Source: a bacterium (lineage in GTDB: Bacteria; Patescibacteriota; Patescibacteriia; JACPHY01). From it: a stretch of DNA of 50,584 bases. A model generated the notes under the pieces. It did no database searches and was not told the origin of the DNA. It saw only the letters and a program-made list of their open reading frames with translations. Positions 218 through 37,024 of this stretch are shown one piece after another. How positions within the stretch are numbered: the stretch's first letter is position 1; every line of letters starts with the position of its first letter. The stretch is taken from positions 1-50,584 of the forward strand of contig JAUSKG010000033.1 of assembly GCA_030647005.1 (NCBI GenBank). Reading direction: 5' to 3'. Made by a program: the position numbers and the translations under genes.

Positions 218-1004
218 AGTGCGCGTGGAGGATCGCGGAGATCGGCTCCTGATTGACTGCACCGATCCGCAGGAGTTCGCCGCTGGCACAGAGTGCCGCC
301 ACCTGCTGGTTTGCGCGGAGGAGCTCATCGTGCGACGTGCCTGCATCAATCCAGAGCCCGGGGAGTTCCGGAGCTGAGAGGAGACCCTGCCGGACGTACC
401 ACATGTTGAGGTCGGTCACCTCGAGTTCCCCGCGCCCCGAGGGGGCGAGCGTGCGGATGACATCGAACACCTGGCTGTCGTAGCAGTAGATGCCGGTCTG
501 CGCGAGGTTGGACTTCGGCTGTTGCGGCTTCTCCTCAATCGACACGACGCGCCCGGAAGCGTCGAGCTCCACGACACCGCACTGACGCGGATCCTCCACG
601 CGCGTGACGAACACCATCGCGCCCTGCGGACGCTGGACGAATTGCTGGAGGTAGGGACGGAGGTCTGCAGTGAAGATGTTGTCGCCGAGCAACATCATGA
701 TCTTCTCGCCATCCACGAACCGCTCCGCGAGGCCCATGGCCTGCGCGATCCCGCCCGCCTCCTCTTGGATGTCGTACTGGAGACGCAAGCCAAACCGGGA
801 TCCGGAACGCAGGAGATTGAGAAACCCCCCCGCGTGCTCCGGCCCCGTAATGAGGAGCACCTCCGTGATCCCCGAACGCGCCATGGCTTGGAGCGGGTAG
901 TAGATCATCGGCCGATCGTAAATCGGCAAGAGGTGCTTGTTCGTCACGTACGTGAGCGGCCGGAGCCGCGTCGCCTTCCCACCGGCCAAGATGACGCCTC
1001 GCAT
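216..1004 (-). CDS. rmlA: Glucose-1-phosphate thymidylyltransferase-like nucleotidyltransferase
   Basis: Predicted to join glucose 1-phosphate and dTTP into dTDP-glucose, the first step of the dTDP-rhamnose pathway. The N-terminus has the nucleotide-binding signature GGKATRLRPLT (residues 8-18) followed by the conserved KHLLPIYDRPMIYYP block. LLGDNIF carries the metal-binding Asp, and LWIDAGT is the conserved late motif. At 262 residues it is shorter than classical RmlA (about 290), so another sugar-nucleotide specificity is possible. I chose the ATG at 1004 because MRGVILAGG begins the domain there; an in-frame GTG at 1019 lies inside a dispersed repeat. The rmlB-like gene is 3.2 kb away on the same strand; no rmlC or rmlD homologue is present in the window. 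Confidence 0.85.
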   Translation of the reverse strand: MRGVILAGGKATRLRPLTYVTNKHLLPIYDRPMIYYPLQAMARSGITEVLLITGPEHAGGFLNLLRSGSRFGLRLQYDIQEEAGGIAQAMGLAERFVDGEKIMMLLGDNIFTADLRPYLQQFVQRPQGAMVFVTRVEDPRQCGVVELDASGRVVSIEEKPQQPKSNLAQTGIYCYDSQVFDVIRTLAPSGRGELEVTDLNMWYVRQGLLSAPELPGLWIDAGTSHDELLRANQQVAALCASGELLRIGAVNQEPISAILHAH

Positions 1005-1010
1005 AGAATA

Positions 1011-1478
1011 GGAGATCACTGCGCTGATCGCGCCGATGACGCAGATACCTTATCGATCCTGAGATGAGAGAATGACACGTCTAGCCTTGATCCCATCCTG
1101 CGTGAAGAAGAGGAGTAAGGCAAGCTGTTTCCCTGTAGCACGGAGATATTCGAGAACCTGCTTCTTGTGGATGTGCTATATGAAAGGAACAACTTTTATC
1201 TCGACAACGAGCTCATTGCGGAGCACAAAATCAAGACGATAGTTTCCTATCTGTTCACCCCGATATATCAATGGAACCACCACTTCATGCTGATACGCAA
1301 TGCCTGCATCATCAAACTCTTTGCATAATGCCCGATGGATATACTGCTCACGCACCCCATATCCCAATGCGTTGTACACCCGAAACGCAATACCGATTGT
1401 TTGACGAGTCAACTCCAATTGTGGGAAATCATCCATAGCGTATCAGCGCGTTATCTGTGTGATCTGCGCAGCGATCTC
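1011..1478 (-). mobile_element. Putative repeat-bounded GxxExxY mini-element
   Basis: A GxxExxY-type gene is bracketed by related sequences in opposite orientation. The left end (1011-1046) starts GGAGATCACTGCGC and contains GACGCAGAT; the right end (1452-1478) contains ATCTGTGTGATCTGCGC and finishes GATCTCC. The left end stops 7 nt before the rmlA start codon. The right end is the last codons of the upstream GT2 gene, which it appears to have supplied. Solo copies of the same end sequence lie just upstream of the rmlB and CDP-alcohol phosphatidyltransferase start codons. No transposase is encoded, and target-site duplications are not evident. Calling it mobile is inference. Confidence 0.5.
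1050..1436 (-). pseudogene. GxxExxY family protein, interrupted by an in-frame TAG
   Basis: The first 86 residues match the GxxExxY family (PD-(D/E)XK-like fold): LGYGVREQYIHRAL holds the name motif, and LDFVLRNELVVEIKV holds the strand with D and E-x-K expected of the nuclease-like core. A TAG codon at 1176-1178 then ends translation. The same frame continues for 41 more codons to a TAA at 1050, encoding HKKQVLEYLRATGKQLALLL and then GIKARRVIL, which is the normal C-terminal part of the family. A single nonsense change therefore splits an otherwise intact gene of about 128 codons. The family's biological role is not established. Either this is a recent pseudogene or a sequencing error. Confidence 0.75.
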
Positions 1479-2296
1479 CACCCCCACTTCACCTGGTACC
1501 GCACGAGCGACGTGAGGTGCGAGCGGGTGAGCGGATTGACGACGAGCGACTTGAGGCCCGGGACGCGGGCAGACGACCGCCCGTGGCCGTGCTCCACGAC
1601 GACATCGCCCTTGTAGTAGACCGGCCATCCGCGCGACCAGAACATCCGGCAGAGATCGCAGTCCTCGAAGTACATGAAGTAGCGTTCATCGAACCCACCA
1701 ACCTCGCGCAGCGCACTCCCTCGGATGACCATTGCAGCGGAGACGGCCCAATCAATGGGGCGCGTCTTCGTGTGGTCCACATCCTCCATGTGAATGCGAT
1801 CCACACGGCGCAACGCCCAGCGGTACCGCTGGTGAAGCCCGAGCCGATGGATGGGCTGGTCAAAGAATGAAGGGAAGCGCATGCACGATCGCTGCATGGA
1901 ACCGTTTGGGAGCTGGAGCTGCGGCGCGACCATACCAATCGCCTCGTTCGCCTCGAGGAAATCGTACAATCGCTTCGTCACCTGCGGCTGCTCAGCGAGG
2001 AAGACGACATCGGGATTGATGAGGAAGTAGTAGCGCGCATCGTACTGCCGTAGCGCGATGTTATTCCCACTCCCAAACCCGCCGTTGCCGGACGCGGCAA
2101 TGACGATGGGCGTCGGGTGCATATCGCGGAACTCCCGTGCAATCGTCTCTGCGATACCGTCGCCCGATGCGTTGTCCACCACGACGGGCTGCACGGTGAG
2201 TCCGCTCCCCGCGACATCGCGGTAGAGCGACCGGAGCATGGTGACCACGCTCGCGGCCATGCGGTAGTTCACGGTGATCGTCACAAGGTCATGCAT
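1451..2296 (-). CDS. GT2 family glycosyltransferase (rhamnosyltransferase-like)
   Basis: A 281-residue GT-A fold enzyme expected to transfer a sugar from a nucleotide donor to a growing surface glycan at the cytoplasmic face. Visible motifs are the nucleotide-binding VVVDNASGDG (38-47), GNGGFGSGNN, the NPDV metal-site equivalent of DXD (94-97), and FDERYFMYFEDCDLCRMFW, which holds the ED-D catalytic region. This pattern is typical of WbbL-type rhamnosyltransferases. The start at 2296 is 5 nt after the stop of the preceding GT2 gene, so the two are translationally linked. The last residues (RSLRRSHR) and the stop codon are written by a dispersed repeat, so the original C-terminus may have been replaced. 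Confidence 0.85.
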   Translation of the reverse strand: MHDLVTITVNYRMAASVVTMLRSLYRDVAGSGLTVQPVVVDNASGDGIAETIAREFRDMHPTPIVIAASGNGGFGSGNNIALRQYDARYYFLINPDVVFLAEQPQVTKRLYDFLEANEAIGMVAPQLQLPNGSMQRSCMRFPSFFDQPIHRLGLHQRYRWALRRVDRIHMEDVDHTKTRPIDWAVSAAMVIRGSALREVGGFDERYFMYFEDCDLCRMFWSRGWPVYYKGDVVVEHGHGRSSARVPGLKSLVVNPLTRSHLTSLVRYQVKWGWRSLRRSHR

Positions 2297-2301
2297 ACGC
2301 G

Positions 2302-3291
2302 CTACGCGGTGAACCACCGCCCGATCACCTCCGGTGCCACGCAGTATCGCTCCATGATCTTCCGACGCTTCTCGAGCATCACCGGCACGAGGCGCGGGAG
2401 GTCTCTGAGCGCGCGGAGCGTCCCCCACTCTGTCGCCGCGAGGTAGAACAATTTCTGCGCTTCATGGAGGAGGATGGGTACCACGTCGGCGCGCAGCGTG
2501 GCGCGGTGCTCGTTCTTCACGAGCGTGAGGAGGTGATTCCGATAGGATAGCCGACGCTCGATGGCGCTCCGATGACGGCGCTTCCGGTGTGCAGCCGCGG
2601 TGCGGTCATGCCACGCGCGCGCCGCGGGGATGACGAACGCGCGCCACCCCGCGCTCCGCAGCCGGTACGCGAGGTCCACGTCTTCCTTGTACGAGAAAAA
2701 AGATGCATCGAGCACCTCACCGTCATGCGCCACCGCTTGGAGCGCGGCGCGACGGTACATCGGGAGCGCGCCGGAAACCCCAAAAACCTCGCCGAACGTC
2801 ACGCTGCCGTACTCCTCCCCCGCTCCCAGCTCGACCACCTGACGGCTGCGTCGCACGAGGAGCCCGAGCGAGTCAATCTCATCGGTTCGCGTCTGCGTGG
2901 GGAAATCCCACCGACAAAGCGCGCCCTGTACCGCAGCGGTGTTGGGGTGGGTTTGGAAAAAAGCGAAGCAACGCGCGAGGTAATCCGGTGCAAGGGCGAC
3001 ATCCTGGTTGATGAGCTGCACGAATGCGCTCGTGGAGCATGCGAACGCCTGATGATGCCCCACTGCAAACCCGAGATTCTCCGCGTTGCGGATGTGTTGC
3101 ACCTTTGGTGTGGCGGATGCACGCCAGCGCGCGCACTCGCGCGACAGCGTCGCCACCGTCGCATCGGTGGACCCGTTGTCCACCACGACGAGATCCCAAC
3201 CCTGCATCGTCTGCTCGCGGAGCGACGCGAAGAGGTGCGGCAGGTACGCCGCACCGTTCCAGGTGACGAGTTGGAGTGTCAGCGATGCCAT
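2302..3291 (-). CDS. GT2 family glycosyltransferase
   Basis: A 329-residue GT-A glycosyltransferase. It begins with LQLVTWNGAAYLPHLFASL and has VVVDNGSTDATV (36-47), ENLGFAVGHHQAF, INQDVAL (metal site, 94-100) and FFSYKEDVDLAYRLRSAGW. The order and spacing match rhamnosyltransferase-like GT2 enzymes of O-antigen and exopolysaccharide clusters. Donor and acceptor cannot be read from sequence. A basic C-terminal tail of about 100 residues (RKRRHRSAIERRLSYRNHLL onward) may contact the membrane. Its start overlaps the end of the upstream GT2 gene by 13 nt, and its stop is 5 nt from the next start, so three GT2 genes form one unit. Confidence 0.88.
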   Translation of the reverse strand: MASLTLQLVTWNGAAYLPHLFASLREQTMQGWDLVVVDNGSTDATVATLSRECARWRASATPKVQHIRNAENLGFAVGHHQAFACSTSAFVQLINQDVALAPDYLARCFAFFQTHPNTAAVQGALCRWDFPTQTRTDEIDSLGLLVRRSRQVVELGAGEEYGSVTFGEVFGVSGALPMYRRAALQAVAHDGEVLDASFFSYKEDVDLAYRLRSAGWRAFVIPAARAWHDRTAAAHRKRRHRSAIERRLSYRNHLLTLVKNEHRATLRADVVPILLHEAQKLFYLAATEWGTLRALRDLPRLVPVMLEKRRKIMERYCVAPEVIGRWFTA

Positions 3292-4136
3292 ACGTCATGG
3301 AGTGCGGTGATGCCAACCGCAAGTGGACGAGCACCTCCGAGCACGCGGGACTTCCACGGCGCGTGGTGCTTCCGGAAGTACGTGAGCATGCTCCGCGTGA
3401 ACATGCGCTGCTTTGCCGCAGTGGGCACCTGCGCGAAACTCTGTCCCACGAAGTCCACACATCGAACGCTCGGTGTATAGGAGACCTGCCAACCGGCATC
3501 GGTCGCGCGCTTGCAGTAGTCCACCTCCTCGAACCAGAGGAAGAACTCCTCATCGAGACCCCCGAGCTGCTCGATGATCGCACGACGAATACAGAAGAAC
3601 GACCCGCGGATGGAATCCACATGCGCCTCACGCGCGTAGTTGAAATCGCGCACGAGGTAGCGATCGAGCACACGCGGAACAACATGCGGAAGCTTCGCGA
3701 GGATCGCGAGCTGATCGGAGAGCTGCGGGAACATCCGCACGTGCGGAATCGTTGCACCCTTCTCGGAAACGAGGTGACACCCCGCGATCCCCACGCGCGC
3801 GTTCCGCGGCTCCCGCATGAACGCCACAATCCCCGGCAGCGTCCCCGCGAGCACACGCATATCCGGATTGAGGAGCAGGACGTACTCCGATTCCGACTCG
3901 CTTGCAGCTCCGATGCCCTGATTGCATCCTACGGCGAACCCGCGATTCTCCCCATTCGCAATGACTCGCACCCACGGGAACTCTGCACGCACCATGTCCA
4001 CGGTCCCGTCGGCGGATGCGTTATCCACGACAACCGTATCCAACGCAATACCTCCCGCATGTTCCACAATGGAGCGCAGGCACACCCGCAGCCGCTCGCG
4101 GACGTTCCAGGAGACGATGACAATGCGGAGATCCAT
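3279..4136 (-). CDS. GT2 family glycosyltransferase
   Basis: First of three consecutive GT2 genes, 285 residues. Motifs: IVIVSWNVRERLRVCLRSI at the N-terminus, TVVVDNASADGTVDMV (34-49), ENRGFAVGCNQGI, LLLNPDMRV (metal site around 90-92) and EFFLWFEEVDYCKRATDAGW. This is the same rhamnosyltransferase-like layout as its two neighbours, which suggests successive additions of related sugars to one glycan. A terminator-like hairpin separates it from rmlB upstream. A candidate -10 sequence TAGGAT preceded by CGC lies about 13 nt before the start, so this gene may open its own transcript with little leader. Confidence 0.88.
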   Translation of the reverse strand: MDLRIVIVSWNVRERLRVCLRSIVEHAGGIALDTVVVDNASADGTVDMVRAEFPWVRVIANGENRGFAVGCNQGIGAASESESEYVLLLNPDMRVLAGTLPGIVAFMREPRNARVGIAGCHLVSEKGATIPHVRMFPQLSDQLAILAKLPHVVPRVLDRYLVRDFNYAREAHVDSIRGSFFCIRRAIIEQLGGLDEEFFLWFEEVDYCKRATDAGWQVSYTPSVRCVDFVGQSFAQVPTAAKQRMFTRSMLTYFRKHHAPWKSRVLGGARPLAVGITALHDVWHR

Positions 4137-4169
4137 ACCGCCTCTATCCTAGCGCATCGCCGTGGAATG

Positions 4170-5233: not shown

Positions 5234-5270
5234 GGAGATCAGTGCGCAGATCGCGCAGATGATGCACAGA
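5234..5270. repeat. Solo end-repeat upstream of rmlB
   Basis: Contains GGAGATCAGTGCGCAGATC and then GCGCAGATGATGCACAGAT, the same sequence family that bounds the GxxExxY element. It fills the whole gap between the rmlB start codon and the stop of the next gene. Confidence 0.65.
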
Positions 5271-5600
5271 TCATACATCTTCACGCAGCGTAGTGAACAC
5301 CGTACCAACCGCAACCGCGGCGAGGAGTGCGACGACCGCGGCGAGCGTTCCGCCGCCCAATGTCCAGAAGGACCACCCTCCCACGACGAGCGCGGCGAGA
5401 AACGCTCCGCCGAGCCACGCCCACGCGCTCGATGGAGCGGCGTGTGTGGCATCCTGTGGAGCGATCATAGCCACTGCGATGAGCGCGAGCAAGAATGCGT
5501 GCGGATTGATAACACTGCGCACGAACCCGGGCTCGAGATCATCGAGCAGGAGGAGGAGCGGGTAGAGTACGAGGAGGACGAGGAGCACTTCCCGCACCAT
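5271..5600 (-). CDS. Small polytopic membrane protein, unknown function
   Basis: About 109 residues, mostly hydrophobic, with three to four predicted membrane spans: VLLVLLVLYPLLLLL, FLLALIAVAMIAP, WLGGAFLAALVVGGWSFW and TLAAVVALLAAVAVGTVF. I recognise no family. I took the ATG at 5600 because the longer frame (to 5714) runs back through a dispersed repeat at 5626-5672 and into the upstream gene. A further start at 5630 would lie in the repeat. It is probably co-transcribed with the membrane-anchored protein upstream and may be an accessory of envelope glycan assembly, but that is only context. Confidence 0.6.
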   Translation of the reverse strand: MVREVLLVLLVLYPLLLLLDDLEPGFVRSVINPHAFLLALIAVAMIAPQDATHAAPSSAWAWLGGAFLAALVVGGWSFWTLGGGTLAAVVALLAAVAVGTVFTTLREDV

Positions 5601-5625: not shown

Positions 5626-5672
5626 GTCATTTCGACCGAAGCGCGTCCGCGCGCGGAGTGGAGAAATCTCAC
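5626..5672. repeat. Half copy of the TCATTTCGA dispersed repeat
   Basis: Starts GTCATTTCGACCGAAGCG and ends GGAGAAATCTCAC. It is one arm of the inverted repeat seen complete at 8610-8694 and elsewhere in this window, and lies between two co-oriented genes. Confidence 0.75.
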
Positions 5673-8541: not shown

Positions 8542-8542
8542 A

Positions 8543-8574
8543 GGGAGATCACTGCGCAGATGACGCAGATGAAG
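8543..8574. repeat. Solo end-repeat upstream of the CDP-alcohol phosphatidyltransferase
   Basis: Reads GGGAGATCACTGCGCAGATG then ACGCAGATGAAG on the plus strand. It matches the end sequence at 1011-1046 and the copy at 5234, in the same position relative to a start codon. Confidence 0.65.
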
Positions 8575-19879: not shown

Positions 19880-20030
19880 GTCATTTCGAGCGGAGCGAAA
19901 GCGAAGTCGAGAAATCTCGTCCTGTAGTACCACTACCCATTATACCGCGAAACGAGATTTCTCCACTCGCTCGATGACTCACTCAGTCGAAATGACGGAA
20001 GGGGGTACGAACTCACTCGGTCGAAATGAC
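19880..20030. repeat. TCATTTCGA inverted repeat with an extra tandem arm
   Basis: The left arm is GTCATTTCGAGCGGAGCG through GAGAAATCTCG. The right arm is CGAGATTTCTCC through CAGTCGAAATGACGG, followed by a second copy, CACTCGGTCGAAATGACGG. It lies downstream of the subtilase gene and could also act as its terminator. Confidence 0.8.
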
Positions 20031-28319: not shown

Positions 28320-28451
28320 GTGAGATTTCTCTCTCCGCTACGCTCTGTTCGAAATGACATCGGTGAGAAAAGACGAACCCCTTCCGTCATTTCGAGCATT
28401 TCTGTCATTTCGAGTATTTCTGTCATTTCGAGCGCGAGCGAGAAATCTCAT
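28320..28451. repeat. TCATTTCGA repeat cluster with a 14-nt tandem
   Basis: A right arm (GTGAGATTTCTCTCTCC to TTCGAAATGAC, 28320-28358) is followed by three closely spaced TCATTTCGA starts from 28387, separated by GCATTTCT/GTATTTCT, ending GAGAAATCTCA. This arrangement suggests repeated slippage or re-insertion at one site. Confidence 0.75.
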
Positions 28452-36845: not shown

Positions 36846-37024
36846 GTCATTTCGACCGAGTGAGTCCGCGAACGCTCCTCTCCGTCATTTCGACCGAGTG
36901 AGTCCTCGAACGCTCCTCTCCGTCATTTCGACCGAGTGAGTCCTCGAACGAGTGGAGAAATCTCATCCCATGGCACAATGGCAACGAGATTTCTCGACTC
37001 CGCTACCGCTCCGCTCGAAATGAC
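36846..37024. repeat. TCATTTCGA inverted repeat with three tandem left arms
   Basis: Three copies at about 42-nt intervals begin GTCATTTCGACCGAGTGAG and continue TCC(G/T)CGAACG. The last runs on to GGAGAAATCTCATCC. A single right arm follows: CGAGATTTCTCGACTCC to GCTCGAAATGAC. The copies are almost identical, so the expansion is recent. Confidence 0.85.

Follow-up and report, generated by a model that had tools for sequence, protein, structure and literature searches.

A probably decayed GxxExxY gene between inverted repeat arms at a GT2-rmlA junction, and arm-flanked relatives in bacteria and archaea

The window, i.e. the whole stretch of DNA that was analysed (50,584 nucleotides of a patescibacterial contig), contains three consecutive minus-strand genes that were identified by profile matches. 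They encode a GT2 glycosyltransferase of 281 residues (1451–2296), a GxxExxY protein (TIGR04256/PF13366; 1050–1436) and the glucose-1-phosphate thymidylyltransferase RmlA (216–1004). The GxxExxY frame is enclosed by two copies of a 39-nt repeat. The left arm (1011–1049) lies on the plus strand within the rmlA leader, and the right arm (1441–1479) is its inverted copy on the minus strand. By sequence search, GGAGATCACTGCGC begins at 1011 on the plus strand and GGAGATCGCTGCGC at 1479 on the minus strand. The consensus of the left arm, built from nine copies of this genome, is GGAGATCACTGCGCAGATnGCGCAGATGATGCGCTGATnA. Model R1, which covers 40 positions of the repeat, matches the left arm at 1011–1047 (E 8e-10) and the right arm with E 3e-12. 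Aligned to each other, the arms give a score of 17 over 32 nt, and the best of seven control positions in the same locus reaches 11. The right arm encodes the final eight codons and the stop codon of GT2 (RSLRRSHR-stop; 1451–1477, minus strand), which follow the sequence KWGW and are missing from the orthologues. An unrelated inverted repeat of 26 nt (81% complementary, copies 38 nt apart) is located at 48–137 near the left end of the contig.

The GxxExxY frame scores 67 bits (cut-off 35) and 73 bits (cut-off 22) with the TIGR04256 and PF13366 profiles, respectively. An in-frame TAG at 1176–1178 truncates the protein to 86 residues. Beyond this codon the frame runs on as HIHKKQVLEYLRATGKQ and the remainder of the conserved end of the family, and reading through the stop raises the score to 105 bits. 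Across 26 diverse GxxExxY sequences, G, E, D, ExK, Q and F do not vary; E, D, ExK and Q are the active-site residues. The window copy lacks the complete set because Q and F are located beyond the TAG, and the protein is therefore probably inactive. As far as can be inferred from sequence alone, this copy of the element is likely dead.

An AlphaFold model of the Stieleria homologue, calculated with 37 sequences, has a pLDDT of 93.5. The nearest solved fold is 4ic1 (Foldseek E 2.4e-3, probability 1.00; VIA Z 10.0, rmsd 4.3, 100 aligned residues), the Cas4 protein SSO0001. Further near folds are LHK-Exo, lambda exonuclease, RecE and Hjc-type resolvases, and the domain of the homing nuclease I-Bth0305I is a weak match (E 0.2). 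A sequence search of the PDB with GxxExxY found no relative. Foldseek gave no match at or below 0.001; thus RecB/Cas4-like is a fold assignment and not proof of activity. The model predicts that GxxExxY has the fold of a small RecB/Cas4-like PD-(D/E)XK nuclease, and nuclease activity is inferred from this fold. The E...D...ExK...Q motif is a mark of the RecB/Cas4/lambda-exonuclease branch. GxxExxY shares fold and motif with this branch but differs in its size of only ~120 residues, in standing alone and in being attached to inverted arms.

The GT2-rmlA junction was compared with those of two relatives, G002 (same genus, the sole other genome of the genus examined) and G001 (same family). In G002 the GT2 gene (75% identical) is directly adjacent to rmlA without an element in between. 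Window positions 278–1008 and 1483–4156 align to consecutive stretches of G002, where the 474 nt of the window in between (1009–1482) are replaced by 47 nt. The GT2 proteins of G002 and G001 end in KWALRR and KWRGSRVGCS, respectively, and the tail WRSLRRSHR is present in neither. The C-terminus of GT2 in the window was therefore rewritten. Within the 47 nt, one part (gene strand: CACTGCGGCGATGAT) slightly resembles the repeat, and it cannot be excluded that a worn solo arm was present at this junction before the insertion.

A first-pass annotation had described a GxxExxY gene between inverted repeat copies, the right one of which encodes RSLRRSHR and the stop codon of GT2, and had suggested insertion into the end of the GT2 gene. 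Both descriptions held, with arms of ~39 nt. The insertion is supported by the G002 junction without the element, which the annotation had proposed to look for, and by the missing tail in G002 and G001. A GT2 homologue with the same C-terminus but without the element would have contradicted it and was not seen. Repeats that are common away from the gene, combined with a lack of empty sites, would also have spoken against it. Only the former applies: solo arms outnumber the GxxExxY gene of the window, yet all three empty sites sought were found. Two corrections are necessary. The GxxExxY frame is broken by the in-frame TAG, and the repeat also occurs outside the element, with most strong copies away from the gene.

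GGAGATCNCTGCGC occurs 22 times in the 1.06-Mb genome with at most one mismatch, versus two occurrences of the reversed pattern. Model R1, run on this genome, G002 and G001, found ten strong copies here (E ≤ 1.9e-8), eight of them away from the only GxxExxY gene found. On these two grounds a chance repeat was rejected. Four of the strong copies are in the window and the others are at C4:19348, C5:10742, C8:6802, C21:67386, C25:30149 and C25:142 of the same assembly. Away from the gene the repeat was found in singlets only; no doublets were detected in this genome. One solo arm (5234–5272, plus strand) is located directly upstream of rmlB, and a shortened one (8544–8574, plus strand) directly upstream of a minus-strand gene that starts near 8542. 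Both were compared with G002 and are missing at the orthologous places. Judged by eye and without a statistic, the solos are mostly near start or stop codons. G002 contains one weak copy (E 7e-4) and no GxxExxY match, and R1 found nothing better than E 0.07 in G001. Accordingly, the spread is largely private to the lineage of the window genome, although the weak arm-like sequence in G002 leaves the possibility that the repeat predates the insertion.

Coding or contig-end matches to the 14-mer were dropped as chance because the rest of the repeat was missing. Likewise, the 21-nt matches at the contig ends C9:13058 and C26:11776 (E 0.006) were discarded, as they represent one coding sequence found twice; the identical stretches (C9:13058–13078 and C26:11776–11796) are probably an assembly overlap. 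A second dispersed repeat, GTCATTTCGAnnRA, has 17 matches in the window with at most one mismatch (0.63 expected), at 5626, 6921, 8610, 8681, 19880–20030, 28345–28435, 36846–37024 and 42977. Three direct copies of it, 38 nt apart, are found at 36846–36935.

PF13366 is present in 60 of the 379 genomes in a sample of the window's phylum, with up to 11 matches per genome. From these matches 29 loci (L015–L043) and 80 further regions were taken, some with two or more genes; the weakest and unlisted matches were left out. A scan of named genomes added the 80 best of 585 confirmed candidates, and the loci outside the phylum are therefore biased towards one protein subgroup. Hosts of a GxxExxY gene include the culturable Anabaena, Litoribacter and Mucilaginibacter, and intact proteins are encoded by, for instance, Stieleria tagensis (L193) and the L118 element of G155. 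In total, 201 profile matches were obtained, 193 of which have at least 120 nt on both sides and represent 191 distinct genes. For each gene the left flank was aligned to the reverse complement of the right flank, with other positions of the same locus as controls. The first-pass annotation had proposed a search for further GxxExxY genes with such ends. Element-specific inverted ends were indeed found elsewhere: the arm score is at least 15 for 127 of the 191 distinct genes, versus 66 of 6,670 control positions (1.0%), and at least 18 for 95 of the 191 versus 35 of the 6,670. In 140 of 183 cases the real score is higher than those of all controls from the locus concerned.

At the cut-off of 15, arms are present around 75 of 116 genes of the phylum sample and 52 of 75 genes of other phyla. 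The latter belong to 19 groups by NCBI ranks (one being "no phylum named"), 16 of which have at least one arm-bearing gene. Arms are found for 13 of 15 genes of Pseudomonadota, nine of ten of Planctomycetota and only three of ten of Bacteroidota, as well as for one of two archaeal loci. Inverted arms thus surround GxxExxY genes in at least 16 phylum-level groups including Archaea. No convincing arms were detected at this cut-off for 64 of the 191 genes. Some of these genes may be old or degraded and others domesticated. In L217 (a Methanophagales archaeon), L219, L164 and L171 the GxxExxY frame has an in-frame stop, so decayed copies also exist outside the window's phylum. At L037/L068, L074, L087, L105, L112 and L113 two GxxExxY elements are located within a few kb of each other (up to ~13 kb), and the arm types of such close pairs in one genome often differ.

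The arms are arrays of 6-nt units, R-C-N-R-A-[T/G/A], mostly three or four per arm and reading inward. Units point to the gene in 118 of 123 scored elements. The units are spaced by 7–12 nt, and in arms with a score of at least 15 mostly by 7–10 nt. The most frequent ones are ACAGAG, ACGAAT, ACTAAT, ACAAAT and ACGGAG. Arms above this cut-off contain 777 RCNRA+1 units versus 246 in shuffles; this count is descriptive and not a test, as the 6-mers were defined after looking at the arms. The median length of the elements is 472 nt (n = 97). Mismatches between left and right arm are rare at the C (2.4%) and A (0.5%) of the unit, at R1 (8%), R4 (7%) and the sixth base (5%), and reach 31% at the free third base and 13–34% in the spacers. 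The unit filter of this comparison was applied to the left arm only. Among 632 mismatches, 148 would form a wobble pair in coding-strand RNA, 143 only in that of the opposite strand and 341 are transversions. Position and type of the mismatches indicate that the arms are kept as motif arrays and not as a stem. No hairpin folding beyond chance was observed for six single arms (z +0.19 to -1.17); gene-less doublets, described below, fold better than shuffles (z -2.5 to -4.2).

Arm types were assigned to 134 of the 191 genes (score ≥13, at least three units). On the tree of these 134 proteins, unit position 4 requires 21 changes versus 44.9 with shuffled labels and position 6 requires 15 versus 59.0, and none of 1,000 shuffles was as low in either case. 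Elements of one genome can differ in arm type, as in G155, G289, G325 and G297. Labels were also swapped only among the copies of one genome (21 genomes, 61 copies). In this shuffle position 4 requires 12 changes versus 20.7 (0 of 1,000 as low), position 6 requires 15 versus 21.7 (0 of 1,000) and position 1 requires 13 versus 17.2 (11 of 1,000). For the 48 proteins from outside the phylum the signal at position 4 is weaker (30 of 1,000), and position 6 is always G. The unit type is linked to the protein lineage, also where several copies share a genome, and gene and arms travel together. Physical linkage alone could yield this covariation without any recognition of the arms by the protein.

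The elements at L117 and L118 occupy two sites of G155 with unrelated flanks and share 79% identity over the 459 nt between the outer ends of their arms. Likewise, those at L184 and L200, from two cyanobacteria, are 78% identical over 459 nt up to the arms, with unrelated flanks. Gene and arms are one unit with sharp edges that was inserted where relatives have none. No target-site duplication was detected; the flank matches of 94 elements equal those of shuffled partners, and a DDE-type insertion with target duplication was rejected on this basis.

The arms have also spread on their own, either in inverted pairs of ~90 nt or as solos of ~40 nt. Outside elements, same-type arrays of at least four units occur 17 times in 319 kb of the phylum and 14 times in 304 kb of other phyla, with 0.2 expected in each case. 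Gene-less inverted doublets were found eight times in 623 kb of flanks (e.g. L093 542–640 and L112 2576–2659) versus 0.0 in shuffles. Elsewhere in G155, arms of the L118 element form doublets of 85–95 nt that share the outer tag AGTGTnTAGCCACA. A G155 arm model found 31 arms in this genome, 22 of them at E ≤ 2e-6, including two gene-bearing pairs and nine gene-less +/- pairs (C20:53378/53424, C17:909/958, C3:21106/21154, C4:4352/4399, C13:12574/12619, C3:12030/12086, C9:16084/16130, C3:118285/118331 and C1:33661/33698). A few of the gene-less pairs include one weak arm (down to E 6e-4). Because the model derives from G155 arms, it matches them by construction; its 11 source arms are among the 31. 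At E ≤ 0.01 it found no arm in G177 (same genus) or in G334 and G394 (same family). G177 and G334 have no GxxExxY match in the phylum sample of 379 genomes.

Elements can also reside in-frame inside housekeeping proteins. Six are located in LepA or RecG, and empty orthologues are known. Within one family, three genomes have the element in LepA, where it lies between KLQPVRMEW (or RMLY) and YVLNLIDTPGH. The filled proteins have 741–749 residues and two empty relatives 599 and 638; a third relative, in broken frames, is also empty at this site (three genomes filled, three empty). This common site in three genera may reflect inheritance. In RecG the element is found in three genomes of two families within one loop, between DEQHRFGV.QR and VPHLLS (844, 866 and 904 residues, versus 683–721 in 11 empty relatives). 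The frame stays open through both arms, whose translation yields peptides such as QTNADKTQTDAD and RKSAL. G212 and G356 have no good RecG match other than the filled one, so the fusion presumably works.

Further in-frame sequences were noticed at these loci. RecG of G356 (L028) contains, besides the full element, a second arm-like peptide further on, PQTNADFTRTNAD, i.e. a solo arm within a protein. In L241 (RecG of G289, contig C9) the insert-taking loop holds an in-frame VIPSEAEG stretch (GTCATCCCGAGCGAAGCCGAGGGA) that resembles another dispersed repeat. GxxExxY frames fused at one end were seen with prepilin-like (L083, L100), RuvC-like (L133) and formyltransferase-like (L112) partners, which were named by eye.

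On balance, we favor, with moderate confidence, the interpretation that the copy in the window is the decayed form of a minimal mobile element (~470 bp) with a REPIN/RAYT-like organisation, in which a nuclease takes the place of the transposase. In this view the nuclease would bind the unit arrays of both arms, perhaps as a dimer or multimer, pair the two inverted arms and cut at the ends. Host repair would then insert the segment, whether liberated or copied, at a break or replication gap. Such repair would fit the lack of target duplications and the replacement of some target sequence. Having both arms would be enough for gene-less pairs to be moved in trans, and solos may be remnants or products of gap repair. 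In the window, the element would have entered between GT2 and rmlA and swapped the final codons of GT2 for arm sequence, and the gene would later have been lost to a nonsense mutation. With the gene broken, the eight solos of this genome must either be older or have arisen in trans. Neither transposition nor cleavage has been observed, and mobilisation of the arms by the nuclease is inferred and not shown. To our knowledge, no RecB/Cas4-like nuclease acts alone as a transposase.

Known systems share parts of this organisation. REP/REPIN sequences with their RAYT (TnpA-REP) transposases likewise consist of a single gene and its cognate short repeats, with inverted doublets that lack the gene and with scattered singlets, and the repeat type is tied to the protein lineage (PMC3116915, PMC8266576). 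In the elements described here, however, the protein is a PD-(D/E)XK nuclease (PF13366) instead of an HUH/Y1 transposase, and single arms are unit arrays and not hairpins. The REPtron criterion of doublets plus singlets is met in G155; the window genome has singlets only. Rickettsia palindromic elements, given as ~150-bp elements, are also found in-frame in unrelated housekeeping genes (PMC10969869), but the insert described here contains an entire nuclease domain, and non-coding relatives of it exist. Insertion sequences and MITEs resemble the elements in having one gene between terminal inverted repeats (here 127 of 191) and gene-less miniature forms. They differ in that here no target-site duplication and no known transposase domain are found and the arms are degenerate unit arrays that vary between lineages.

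The strongest rival is that GxxExxY is cargo and that the arms are mobilised by another enzyme, e.g. a Y1/RAYT transposase. Y1_Tnp matches exist in the window genome (three), G002, G155 and G177 (one each), and the gene-less doublets and solos resemble REPIN/REP populations. However, none of the three Y1-bearing contigs of the window genome (C10, C20, C27) has a strong R1 arm, the closest arm in G155 is ~3.7 kb from its Y1 gene, and G177 has the best Y1 match but no arms. Furthermore, the unit type tracks the GxxExxY tree within genomes, and single arms lack hairpins beyond chance. Y1 genes are thus present but unlinked to the arms, which makes RAYT-driven spread, and with it the cargo explanation, unlikely without excluding it. 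The first-pass annotation had left open whether GxxExxY genes are cargo or agents; this remains undecided, with the agent favoured.

Three other explanations appear even less probable, each of them very unlikely. A free-standing homing-like nuclease could cut element-less alleles and be copied in by repair, mainly at fixed sites and with the arms as recombination tracts. Such homing would fit the LepA inserts at one site in three genera, the RecG inserts in one loop in two families and the weak match to I-Bth0305I. Homing endonucleases of this type are small selfish nucleases, but the elements occupy many unrelated sites, including two in G155, their solos and doublets are scattered, no intron or intein is shown and the common LepA site may be plain inheritance. 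Alternatively, the arms could pair as a stem in the transcript and the insert be processed out, as in rRNA intervening sequences. The inverted arms around one small gene and the folding of the doublets are compatible with this, whereas the mismatch types give no support to an RNA stem: there is no coding-strand G-U bias (148 versus 143), and more than half are transversions. Moreover, the LepA and RecG inserts keep the frame through both arms, which removal from RNA would not require. Finally, the gene could be a stationary one that serves in regulation or defence, with the arms as its operators or origins and the empty sites as deletions. Inverted arrays at both ends could bind a protein, which is an inference only. 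Precise empty sites in LepA, RecG and at the GT2-rmlA junction, copies at unrelated sites and gene-less doublets in only one of four related genomes argue against it.

Beyond the element in the window, we put forward a bolder reading which, taken as a whole, we regard as slightly more likely to fail than to hold. GxxExxY proteins would be the mobility enzymes of a separate element class in bacteria and archaea. A lone PD-(D/E)XK nuclease of 120 residues would read a modular code written in the RCNRAK units of inverted arms, mobilise complete elements, doublets that lack the gene and in-frame inserts in proteins, all without target duplication, and sustain REPIN-like repeat populations across a wide range of phyla. 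The element would be new as a class because each known element class with which it was compared has a defining test that it fails. The open-access literature searched mentions GxxExxY only in passing and PF13366, TIGR04256 and PDDEXK_3 only in listings, and links none of them to repeats or mobility. Closed journals and preprints were not covered. As such, the organisation resembles that of REPINs, and it cannot be excluded that one of these sources contains an earlier description.

The GxxExxY family is common and has been named by its motif alone; a role in a mobile element would give it a function to test. Such a role would explain many short repeats of the CGCAGAT, ACACAGAG or TACGAAT kind and add a mobile element without a recognisable transposase. 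The matched variants of protein and DNA unit are a natural set for reading the recognition code, and the frame-keeping inserts in LepA and RecG represent a route by which a domain may enter a housekeeping protein.
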